This document shows, in pieces, positions 8,963 to 11,541 of a DNA stretch of 64,000 nt (its first letter is position 1; every line of letters starts with the position of its first letter). Position numbers and translations under genes: made by a program. The notes under the pieces are model-generated. The model did no database searches. It had not been told where the DNA came from and worked only from the letters and a program-made list of their open reading frames with translations. The DNA lies in contig NZ_CP084260.1 in the NCBI RefSeq assembly GCF_022879575.1, positions 1,674,001 through 1,738,000 on the forward strand. Reading direction: 5' to 3'. The stretch comes from Caballeronia sp. SL2Y3 (GTDB taxonomy: Bacteria > Pseudomonadota > Gammaproteobacteria > Burkholderiales > Burkholderiaceae).

Positions 8963-10507
8963 TCAAAGCTGCGGATTGAGCTTTTCGACCTTCGAATGCA
9001 GCTTGTTGAGCGCGGCGATATACGCCTTCGCCGAAGCGGCGACGATATCCGGATCCGTGCCGACGCCGTTCACGATACGCCCGCTCTTCGACAGCCGCAC
9101 CGTCACTTCGCCCTGCGCCTGCGTGCCGGTCGTGATCGCGTTGACCGAGTACAGCACGAGTTCCGCGCCGCTTTCCACCTTCGATTCGATCGCGTGCAGC
9201 GTGGCATCGACCGGGCCGTTGCCGCGTGCTTCGCCCGTCAATTCGGTGCCATCCACCGCGAAGACCACGCGCGCCTGCGGCTGCTCGCCGGTCTCCGAAT
9301 GCTGCTTCATCGAAACGAAGCGGAAATGCTCCTTCGCCTGCGCTTCCGGCGATTCTTCGGAGACGATCTGCATGATGTCTTCGTCGAAGATTTCGGCTTT
9401 GCGGTCCGCCAGATCCTTGAAGCGCGCGAACGCGGCATTCACTTCCGCTTCCGATTCGAGCTGCACGCCGAGTTCTTCGAGACGCTGCTTGAACGCGTTG
9501 CGGCCGGACAGCTTGCCGAGCACGATCTTGTTCGCGCTCCAGCCCACGTCTTCGGCGCGCATGATTTCGTAGGTGTCGCGCGCCTTCAGCACGCCGTCCT
9601 GGTGGATGCCCGACGCGTGCGCGAACGCGTTCGCGCCGACCACCGCCTTGTTCGGCTGCACGACGAAGCCGGTGATCTGCGAGACGAGCTTCGAAGTCGG
9701 CACGATCTGCGTCGTGTCGATACCCAGGTCGAGCCCGAAATAATCCTTGCGCGTCTTGACCGCCATCACGATTTCTTCGAGCGACGTATTGCCCGCGCGC
9801 TCGCCCAGGCCGTTGATCGTGCATTCCACCTGACGCGCGCCGCCGATCTGCACGCCCGCGAGCGAATTCGCCACCGCCATGCCGAGGTCATCGTGGCAGT
9901 GAACGGAGAAGATGGCCTTGTCCGAATTCGGGATGCGCTCGCGCAGCGTCTTCACGAGGTTGCCGTAGAGTTCCGGCACGCCATAACCCACCGTGTCGGC
10001 GATATTGATCGTGCGCGCGCCTTCGTCGATCACCGCTTCGAGCACGCGGCACAGAAAGTCGATATCCGAGCGGCTGCCGTCTTCCGGTGAGAACTCCACA
10101 TCGTCCGTGAACTTGCGGGCGAAGCGCACCGCGAGCCGCGCCTGTTCGTACACCTGCTCCGGCGACATGCGCAGCTTCTTTTCCATATGCAGCGCGGACG
10201 TGGCGATGAACGTGTGAATGCGGAAGCGGTTCGCGGGCTTCAACGCATCGGCGGCGCGCTGGATGTCCTTGTCGTTGGCGCGGGCAAGCGAGCAGACCGT
10301 GCTGTCCTTCACGAGCGAGGCGATCGTCTGGATCGCGTCGAAGTCGCCGTTGGAACTGGCGGCGAAACCGGCCTCGATCACGTCGACCTTCATGCGCTCC
10401 AGTTGCTTCGCGATGCGGATCTTCTCCTCTTTCGTCATCGAAGCGCCGGGGGACTGCTCGCCGTCACGCAAGGTCGTATCGAAGATGATCAACTTGTCTG
10501 CTGCCAT
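8963..10507 (-). CDS. leuA: 2-isopropylmalate synthase
   Basis: First committed step of leucine synthesis: condenses acetyl-CoA with 2-oxoisovalerate. The 514-residue product has the HMGL-like catalytic domain ([13 protein letters not shown] near 9-21, metal-binding HCHDD near 203-207) and a C-terminal LeuA allosteric domain (about 370-505) for leucine feedback. The start at 10507 has AGGAG. A leucine-rich leader ORF with its own promoter lies upstream, so attenuation by leucyl-tRNA supply is likely in addition to allosteric control. Confidence 0.97.
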
Positions 10508-10634
10508 GTTGGGCTCCTGTGGGGAGATTTATCGATTGTTGGAAATATCGAGATAGAACGACAAAGGGAATCCGGGTGTTCGCGCCACCGCTGGCGTCGA
10601 AAACCTTGAACGAGCAGACGGGAGGCGAGACAGA

Positions 10635-10721
10635 TCAGCGCGGTAGGCGCGCTAGTAGCGATAGTGCGCGTAGGAACGCACCAGCCGAGGAAGACGAGAG
10701 AAGGAACAGAGAAATGTTCAT
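10635..10721 (-). CDS. leuL: leucine leader peptide (leuA attenuator)
   Basis: A 28-codon ORF in the leuA leader, ending 127 bases before leuA. Eight of 28 residues are Leu, and the last five (L17, L20, L22, L23, L26) are all CUA, a rare Leu codon in such G+C-rich genomes. Two hairpins overlap these codons (10664-10681 and 10637-10653). The CGCGCC-U-ACC strand at 10642-10651 can instead pair with GGUGGCGCG at 10581-10589. No ribosome binding site precedes the ATG; the promoter places +1 on the ATG itself, suggesting a leaderless message. I see no U-run terminator before leuA. Confidence 0.72.
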   Translation of the reverse strand: MNISLFLLSSSSAGAFLRALSLLARLPR

Positions 10722-10727
10722 TCGAAA

Positions 10728-10756
10728 ACTATAACGGCTTTCGAAGACGCGTGCAA
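10728..10756 (-). promoter_or_regulatory. promoter of the leuL-leuA transcript
   Basis: Minus-strand -35 TTGCAC (10751-10756), 17-bp spacer, -10 TATAGT (10728-10733). Six bases separate the -10 from the leader-peptide ATG at 10721, so the predicted +1 is the A of ATG. The rest of 10508-10869 holds only this promoter, the leader ORF, its hairpins and the terminator at 10807-10840. Confidence 0.65.
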
Positions 10757-10800: not shown

Positions 10801-10840
10801 ACAAAACAAAAAGCCTGCATTCGCGAGAACGCAGGCTTTT
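10801..10840 (-). terminator. intrinsic terminator of the NlpC/P60 gene
   Basis: Stem AAAAGCCTGC/GCAGGCTTTT (10809-10818 with 10831-10840), followed on the minus strand by TTGTTTTG. It ends the gene to its right just before the leuA promoter. Confidence 0.85.
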
Positions 10841-10869
10841 GTGATGCGCGTGTGAAGCAAAGGGGTCGG

Positions 10870-11541
10870 TCAGTAACCGCCGAGCGTCGCGCTCACGCGC
10901 TGACGCAATTCAGCGCCGTCGTTGAACTGCGCGTTCTCGATGCGGCGAGCGCCCGTGAACCGCTTTTCCCAATAGCCGTTTTCCATGTCGTCGACGCGGA
11001 TCGTGCTGCCGGTGGACGGCGAATGCACGAACTTGTTGTCGCCGATATAGATGCCGACATGCGAGAACGAGCGGCGCATCGTGTTGAAGAACACGAGATC
11101 GCCCGGCTTGAGATCCGACACGCGGACCTTCTCGCCGACGCGGCTCATTTCTTCGGCGCGGCGCGGCAGCGTCATGCCGAGCGTGTCCTGAAAGACGTAG
11201 CGCACGAAGCCGCTGCAATCGAGGCCCGAATCCGGCGTGTCGCCGCCCCAGCGATAGCGCACGCCGATCATGTTGAGCGCGCCGACGACGACGTCGCCTG
11301 CCTTGCTCGCTACGCCGGAGAAGAACGCCTTCGCGCCGCGCGGTGCGCTGGCGGTATCCGCCGTGGCTGCGACGGCCGCAGTGTCGGCGGCTTTGGAAGC
11401 GGTGGAGATGCCGTTGCCGGCATTTTGGCTGTTACTGCTGACTTCGTCGGCGAAAGCGCCGGAAGTGGTGGTCATCAGAAGGCCGAGCAACATGCCCGCG
11501 GCAGCGCGCGCACATGTCTGAGTCAACGTGAGTGGTTGCAT
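10870..11541 (-). CDS. NlpC/P60 family cell-wall hydrolase
   Basis: A 223-residue exported C40 peptidase that probably cleaves peptide cross-links in peptidoglycan. A signal peptide ends near residue 31 (SGAFA-DE), then comes an Ala/Ser/Thr-rich linker to about 68. The catalytic domain has Cys in LDCSGFVRYVF (C109) and His in HVGIYIG (H161), with H173 as the likely third residue. The start at 11541 is the first Met directly ahead of a signal peptide. It has its own promoter and terminator, so it is monocistronic. Confidence 0.9.
   Translation of the reverse strand: MQPLTLTQTCARAAAGMLLGLLMTTTSGAFADEVSSNSQNAGNGISTASKAADTAAVAATADTASAPRGAKAFFSGVASKAGDVVVGALNMIGVRYRWGGDTPDSGLDCSGFVRYVFQDTLGMTLPRRAEEMSRVGEKVRVSDLKPGDLVFFNTMRRSFSHVGIYIGDNKFVHSPSTGSTIRVDDMENGYWEKRFTGARRIENAQFNDGAELRQRVSATLGGY

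Follow-up and report, generated by a model that had tools for sequence, protein, structure and literature searches.

The window analysed here is a stretch of 64,000 nucleotides from Caballeronia sp. SL2Y3 (NCBI RefSeq contig NZ_CP084260.1, positions 1,674,001 to 1,738,000), in which leuA, encoding a 2-isopropylmalate synthase, is read from the minus strand. Just 5′ of leuA lies a short open reading frame (ORF) with a run of leucine codons, as expected of an attenuator. The features of the locus, in the direction of transcription, are the following.

10809..10840, minus strand: terminator-like site 3′ of the upstream NlpC/P60 gene
10751..10756, minus strand: -35 element of the putative leader promoter, TTGCAC
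10728..10733, minus strand: -10 element, TATAGT, after a 17-base spacer
10721, minus strand: predicted transcription start, the A of the leader ATG, placed from the -10 spacing in relatives
10635..10721, minus strand: leader peptide ORF of 28 codons, eight of them Leu and the last five of these CTA
10664..10681, minus strand: predicted hairpin A, GUGCG..CGCAC, with CUA in the loop
10637..10653, minus strand: predicted hairpin B, AGCGCG..CGCGCU, with CUA in the loop, ending at the stop codon
10619..10629, minus strand: segment m, conserved CUCGCCUCCCG, predicted to pair with f as the outer stem of hairpin D
10583..10596, minus strand: predicted hairpin C, core CGCCA-GCGG-UGGCG, extended form about 10605-10575, at a terminator-like position with no U-run
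10581..10590, minus strand: segment f, CGGUGGCGCG, common to the competing folds C and D
10519..10580, minus strand: C-rich, G-poor stretch 5′ of the leuA Shine-Dalgarno sequence, predicted unstructured, a rut-like candidate
10514..10518, minus strand: leuA Shine-Dalgarno sequence, AGGAG
8963..10507, minus strand: leuA, 514 amino acid residues, with HMGL-like and LeuA_dimer domains

The scan for terminators found one terminator-like site after the NlpC/P60 gene, with 0.7 expected in shuffles, and leuA is therefore probably its own transcription unit. The stretch 10806-10912 (minus strand), which overlaps this site, weakly resembles the Burkholderia sRNA family ncS011 (23.8 bits against a cut-off of 48) and was rejected as an sRNA. 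The leader adjoins leuA despite differing upstream neighbours, the NlpC/P60 gene in the window and a CDP-alcohol phosphatidyltransferase gene in the Burkholderia locus L007. A second, shorter LeuA-like match of about 79% identity was seen in some genomes of the same genus (G020:C169, G035:C4, G018:C2 and G004:C10).

The leader ORF runs from the ATG at 10721-10719 to the TGA at 10637-10635 and its translation is MNISLFLLSSSSAGAFLRALSLLARLPR. Its leucine codons are CTG, CTT and CTC followed by five CTA (codons 17, 20, 22, 23 and 26). Since CTA makes up 47 of the 1424 leucine codons (3.3%) in the 34 long ORFs of the window, five CTA among eight leucine codons are unlikely by chance (binomial P for at least five, 2e-6); the probability of at least eight leucines in 27 codons is 0.002. 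The first-pass annotation of this DNA, made from the letters alone, had described a 28-codon Leu-rich ORF whose last five leucine codons are CTA, rare in such G+C-rich DNA, and both the sequence and the codon counts confirm it.

Promoter geometry and codons of the leader in relatives

In the window leader six bases separate TATAGT from the ATG, so that the A of the ATG is the seventh base past the -10 element, and no Shine-Dalgarno sequence precedes the ATG. The same arrangement was collected from relatives with a pattern of TTG, a spacer of 17-19 bases, TATANT and an ATG 6-8 bases further on. Among the 121 distinct sites picked in this way, TTGC was present in 120, although the pattern required only TTG at this position; the spacer was of 17 bases in 120, the -10 element was TATAGT in 104 and TATATT in 17, and a Shine-Dalgarno-like motif between the -10 element and the ATG was found in none. 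A later count dropped the ATG condition. The promoter, taken as TTGC and TATANT spaced as in a promoter and no more than about 340 bases from leuA, was then present in 137 of 215 distinct leuA upstream regions, and the first ATG of any frame lay 6-8 bases past the -10 element in 129 of these 137 (6 bases in 63, 7 in 65 and 8 in one), the exceptions being L009, L010, L178, L189, L197, L198, L206 and L020, the last with its second ATG at 7. When distances of 4 to 9 bases were allowed, 122 of 123 leaders had the ATG at 6 or 7. By the same rule promoter plus ATG were absent from 87 of 224 loci, many of them Comamonadaceae-type loci that have another kind of promoter, with an extended -10.

Within the 5.5 Mb genome the pattern TTGC-N18-20-TATANT-N6-7-ATG has a single match, at leuA. 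The same kind of promoter-ATG pattern has matches in at least 128 of 150 genomes of the family, many of those listed lying away from leuA. Other leaderless-looking sites recur in genomes of groups g10 and g3 (G133:C3:256577, G177:C1:218864 and G177:C6:193187, among the matches listed); the recurring types are TTGCTT..TATACT..ATG and a palindrome around TTCGAATATATTCGAA.

A sigma-70 scan found no promoter at the leader, and TTGCAC agrees with the sigma-70 consensus at only three of six positions; the case for the promoter therefore rests on its conservation. The spacing TTGCAC-17-TATAGT, which had been proposed to place the transcription start on an ATG without Shine-Dalgarno sequence, is borne out in the window and recurs in relatives, and we infer from it that the transcript is leaderless, with its 5′ end at the leader ATG. 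Leaderless mRNAs have been reported in B. cenocepacia J2315 (PMC4603805) and in C. metallidurans (PMC7563307). The main texts of these two reports and of PMC9045368 do not mention leuA, attenuation, a leader peptide or leucine.

Across the 123 distinct leader ORFs sharing the promoter geometry, CTA accounts for 433 of 795 leucine codons; at least four leucines are present in 112 of the ORFs and at least two CTA in 108. CTA stands at codons 17 and 20 in every one of the 25 Caballeronia-type leaders that have the same length and at codon 23 in 23 of them, and codons 22 and 23 are always CTA or CTG; leucine at codons 5-16 is not kept and varies between leaders. Variable sites in these 25 leaders number 16, 14 and 16 by codon position. 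As the three positions vary about equally, the peptide itself is not evidently conserved, while the codons and the RNA folds are. All 121 gap runs within the ORF in the alignment are multiples of three, compared with 27 of 382 downstream of the stop codon, many of the gaps being inherited from few events. Aligning leuA leaders for conserved CUA codons had been suggested as a check, and the ORF, its CTA codons and the promoter-ATG distance do recur in many Burkholderiales. Judged by its relatives, the leader is a real feature.

RNA folds of the leader and of the region past its stop codon

The folds were assessed on an alignment of 66 of the 111 leader references, from which lost or altered ORFs, near-duplicates, L098 (mis-sited) and one Cupriavidus-like leader were left out. 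The two hairpins overlapping the CUA codons that the first-pass annotation had pointed out are present in these aligned leaders. Hairpin A is paired in 97.7% of cells and its covariation score was reached by 0 of 500 shuffles; hairpin B is paired in 99.5%, with weak covariation (44 of 500).

The first-pass annotation had also proposed that 10651-10642 pairs alternatively with 10589-10581. This complementarity exists (94.1% paired, 66 sequences), but its role as a switch was rejected, as it lacks covariation, 500 of 500 shuffles scoring at least as high. Another partner of the same strand, 10629-10619, does better: segment m (10629-10619) with segment f (10590-10581) is paired in 98.7% of cells, with seven double-change cells in the 66 leaders and a covariation score that none of 500 shuffles attained. 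Most of this covariation comes from one position, at which A in f accompanies U in m. On a rough tree, on which 12 of 106 rows are unplaced, the two columns of this position change 11 and 10 times, and 18 times jointly, with L123 as a counter-example, so that few of the changes coincide. The covariation of the m:f pairing, and with it fold D, is thus suggestive. The distal motif CGCCANCGGTGGCGCG has a single occurrence in the genome.

For hairpin C the share of paired cells is 88.4% or 95.5%, depending on the register, and no double changes were found in the 66 leaders, so that this hairpin was rejected as a covarying stem in either register. A further fold, b with c (65-73/81-89), was rejected as well, with 80.6% of cells paired and a covariation score that 42 of 500 shuffles reached. 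Of the 66 folds, 11 were inspected, and in these the region past the leader stop codon folds as the long hairpin D, using m and f. The mean fold energy over the 66 sequences was -20.9 kcal/mol; with m masked it was -17.7 kcal/mol and hairpin C formed, and with e masked it was -10.9 kcal/mol. According to these models C and D are mutually exclusive, as they compete for one strand. Compared with shuffles in 33 sequences (every second row of the alignment), the C region had a mean z-score of -2.04, that is, it is more stable, and the D/C module had a less clear -1.43. Folding with the ribosome at stall positions did not clearly separate the states among the results listed.

Terminators, the C-rich stretch and loss of the leader

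The lineages were compared in a census. A leader was counted if it had one CTA or more and a -10 element at 5-9 bases; the Pandoraea-like loci, along with some others, were not included. Leaders were counted in 39 of 58 Comamonadaceae-type, 12 of 12 Cupriavidus-like, 2 of 2 Ralstonia-like and 3 of 3 Polynucleobacter loci; by the same rule 19 of the 58 Comamonadaceae-type loci have no leader, and one more was too short. A scripted call placed an intrinsic terminator after 55 of the 56 leaders of these four groups.

In the Cupriavidus-like, Ralstonia-like and Polynucleobacter loci, leader codons are complementary to the 5′ arm of the terminator. The sequences of leader and arm differ between groups yet match each other, as in CAGGUCGGG:CCCGGCCUG and CUGGGGU:ACCCCAG, and in 14 of the 17 loci the complementarity exceeds that of at least 95 of 100 leader shuffles. 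The usual match in Comamonadaceae-type loci, ACGGGC:GCCCGU, is short; its mean score is 10.9 versus 8.6 for shuffled leaders, and of 38 loci only 4 individually outscore 95 of 100 shuffles. On this comparison with shuffles, the sequences of the first three groups give good support to classical attenuation by way of a leaderless leader, which is plausible for the Comamonadaceae-type. In two of the Comamonadaceae-type loci (L027:16-83 and L036:200-268) the ilvH RNA motif of Rfam is found a few kilobases 5′ of leuA, in L027 directly before an IlvH-like ORF as judged by inspection.

The window leader differs at this point from an attenuator of the classical form, as the scan found no intrinsic terminator in it; the first-pass annotation was right that no U-run terminator is present here. 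In the census an intrinsic terminator was called in 0 of 22 Burkholderia-type, 0 of 14 g25/g13 and 0 of 11 Paraburkholderia-type leaders, and in 4 of 46 Caballeronia-type leaders, all four being poor stems with a 13-nt loop. Oxalobacteraceae-type leaders gave 0 of 6; three of these loci (L019, L020 and L056) seem, as judged by eye, to have a different stem in common, ACCC..GGGU, between the leader stop codon and leuA. The Caballeronia/Burkholderia/Paraburkholderia clade is thus without a detectable terminator and has instead a conserved downstream module, comprising two predicted folds that exclude each other and a tail rich in C. The intrinsic terminator was probably lost in this clade.

A different reading of the same region is that the extended hairpin C, together with the interrupted tract UUCC(C/G)UUUU, forms a weak intrinsic terminator. 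Hairpin C does extend to ..CGAAU, directly 5′ of UCCGUUUU, in several of the 11 folds inspected, and many of the aligned Caballeronia-, Paraburkholderia- and g25/g13-type sequences show the tract. It is not seen in the Burkholderia-type rows, however, and given the negative scan of the window leader and the census counts above, with only poor stems in the Caballeronia-type, we consider this reading unlikely.

The stretch between hairpin C and the leuA Shine-Dalgarno sequence is predicted to be unstructured in 33 relatives (mean z 0.20, mean MFE -2.4). From the leader stop codon to leuA the C/G ratio in the window is 1.76, versus 1.02 on average in randomly drawn stretches, most of them coding. 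After the leader stop codon it is 1.39-1.81 by group in the clade, 1.23-1.25 in the terminator-bearing groups and 1.42 in the Oxalobacteraceae-type, and YC dinucleotides per base number 0.23-0.24 in the clade versus 0.13-0.16. A rut-like test of C spacing gave no separation between the clades: by group it matched 19/20, 18/45, 12/14 and 7/11 leaders in the clade of the window and, outside it, 12/13 in Cupriavidus/Ralstonia, 11/37 in the Comamonadaceae-type and 2/6 in the Oxalobacteraceae-type. Because the composition leans to Rho but the C spacing does not, Rho is something that we infer, and our best guess for the clade of the window is that folds C and D guide a termination assisted by Rho.

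Masking of the leuA start had been offered besides Rho as a substitute for an intrinsic terminator. RNAalifold gave four base pairs only, between leader pyrimidines and the GGAG of leuA, and start-codon masking was set aside as the main mechanism, no good stem having been found. A broader version, in which the peptide truly stalls ribosomes and the read-out is leuA translation or mRNA stability, would also suit a clade without intrinsic terminators, and it has a precedent in one reading of the actinobacterial LEU element, described as pairing Leu codons with the leuA Shine-Dalgarno sequence (PMC1262725). One of the four pairs is broken in 17 of the 66 rows, though, the stretch before the Shine-Dalgarno sequence is unstructured in the 33 sequences folded, and the leaders of the sister lineages end in intrinsic terminators in all but one case; a read-out of this kind seems to us improbable, somewhat more so than a weak terminator.

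Loss of the ORF in close relatives, which the first-pass annotation had named as an outcome that would speak against an attenuator, was found in part of the clade, the ORF being kept elsewhere. The CTA-bearing leader is absent from 12 of 23 Paraburkholderia-type loci, often with the promoter still present, and the ORF is destroyed in at least 2 of 49 Caballeronia-type loci, by loss of the start codon in L106 and a frameshift in L116. The Caballeronia-type L109 differs only in the -10 element. Among eight leader-less Paraburkholderia-type loci that were folded, five keep GGTGGCG near leuA, three of these with a D-like hairpin (L009, L010 and L197); in two others GGTGGCG occurs only about 450 bases off, and in one it is absent. 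The losses and the retained D-like hairpin therefore suggest that the leader is dispensable in places and that the downstream module may serve a function of its own. The Pandoraea-like loci L013, L202, L203, L205, L208-L210 and L213 show the same promoter-ATG geometry, with longer or shortened ORFs, few leucines and 0-2 CTA, and these ORFs are perhaps a decaying leader. That the leaderless-looking ORF is a product of chance or a relic without present function in the clade of the window could draw on the lost and broken ORFs just described, but most other loci retain the promoter geometry, the identity of the codons and the reading frame, and the arrangement is unique in the genome of the window, at leuA, which makes this reading very improbable.

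Proposed mechanism and comparison with known systems

The proposal of the first-pass annotation, a leucine attenuator with a leaderless leader peptide, is supported by the recurrent ORF, CTA codons and promoter-ATG distance and by the terminators of the sister lineages, and on these sequence comparisons we regard it as very likely. This main claim stands although the evidence for the antiterminator and for fold D is soft, because it rests on codons, promoter geometry and terminators. The best explanation for the locus, and one that we hold with good confidence, is a leucine-responsive attenuator of leuA in which folds C and D would form the switch.

Transcription would begin at the A of the leader AUG, and the ribosome would load directly at the exposed 5′ end. 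A shortage of charged tRNA-Leu that reads the rare codon CUA is expected to stall the ribosome at the CUA codons of the leader; with ample leucine, the ribosome would reach the UGA and cover the RNA just past it. The position of the ribosome would in this way select either D, in which m (10629-10619) pairs with f (10590-10581), or C, in which 10596-10592 pairs with f. At a best guess, stalling would favour D and read-through into leuA, and C or the exposed C-rich RNA would lead to the end of transcription before leuA, probably with Rho.

A more tentative, evolutionary extension, to which we give rather less than even credence, is that an ancestral leaderless attenuator lost its intrinsic terminator in the Burkholderia-Caballeronia-Paraburkholderia clade, that CUA stalling there now picks C or D and so hides or exposes a C-rich Rho loading region, and that part of Paraburkholderia kept the RNA module without the leucine-sensing ORF.

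If the attenuator is as proposed, many Burkholderiales would gain a leucine sensor at leuA, outside any Rfam family, and leaderless leader peptides would be extended to a large proteobacterial group. The relatives differ mainly in the last step (a U-tract terminator, none, or no leader at all) and would form a natural series on how stalling is read without an intrinsic terminator. A literature search by title and opening of the abstract, in which subscription journals are poorly covered, gave no description of such an attenuator in Burkholderiales.

The enterobacterial leu leader has its own Shine-Dalgarno sequence and an intrinsic terminator. The window leader, unlike it, has neither, and it has no Rfam match: the Rfam families, Leu_leader included, gave none at the window leader (E up to 5) or in 12 relatives (E up to 1). 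It shares with leuL of Salmonella and E. coli (Rfam Leu_leader) the leucine control codons and the use of CUA among them; in the Salmonella leu leader CUA is reported as control codon, and its change to CUG reduced sensitivity (PMC1183508, citing Carter 1986).

A start at the leader AUG or one base from it, as predicted here, is described for trpL of Sinorhizobium meliloti, whose RNA starts with its ATG (PMC7298713), and for ilvBNC of Corynebacterium glutamicum, whose transcript starts one base from the leader AUG (PMC11857589). Both differ from the leuA leader in serving other amino acids in other phyla or classes, and in having terminators described. A leader peptide without an obvious terminator hairpin is shared with leaders read by Rho, such as E. 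coli tna, by analogy with which Rho was proposed for actinobacterial cys leaders (PMC1262725); for the window leader Rho is the conjecture set out above.

The nearest known counterpart is leuL1, the leader 5′ of leuA in Streptomyces lividans, which is described as leaderless and without a typical terminator (PMC8079986); the LEU element of other Actinobacteria has Leu codons that form pairs with the Shine-Dalgarno sequence of leuA (PMC1262725). As in leuL1 and LEU, a predicted leaderless Leu-rich peptide precedes leuA in the window with no typical intrinsic terminator. The LEU pairing lies below a pseudoknot, whereas the pairing with the Shine-Dalgarno sequence predicted here is of 4 bp, the two being compared on that pairing alone. 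The phylum and the peptide are also different, the sister lineages within the Burkholderiales have terminators, and over half of the leader leucine codons are CUA.
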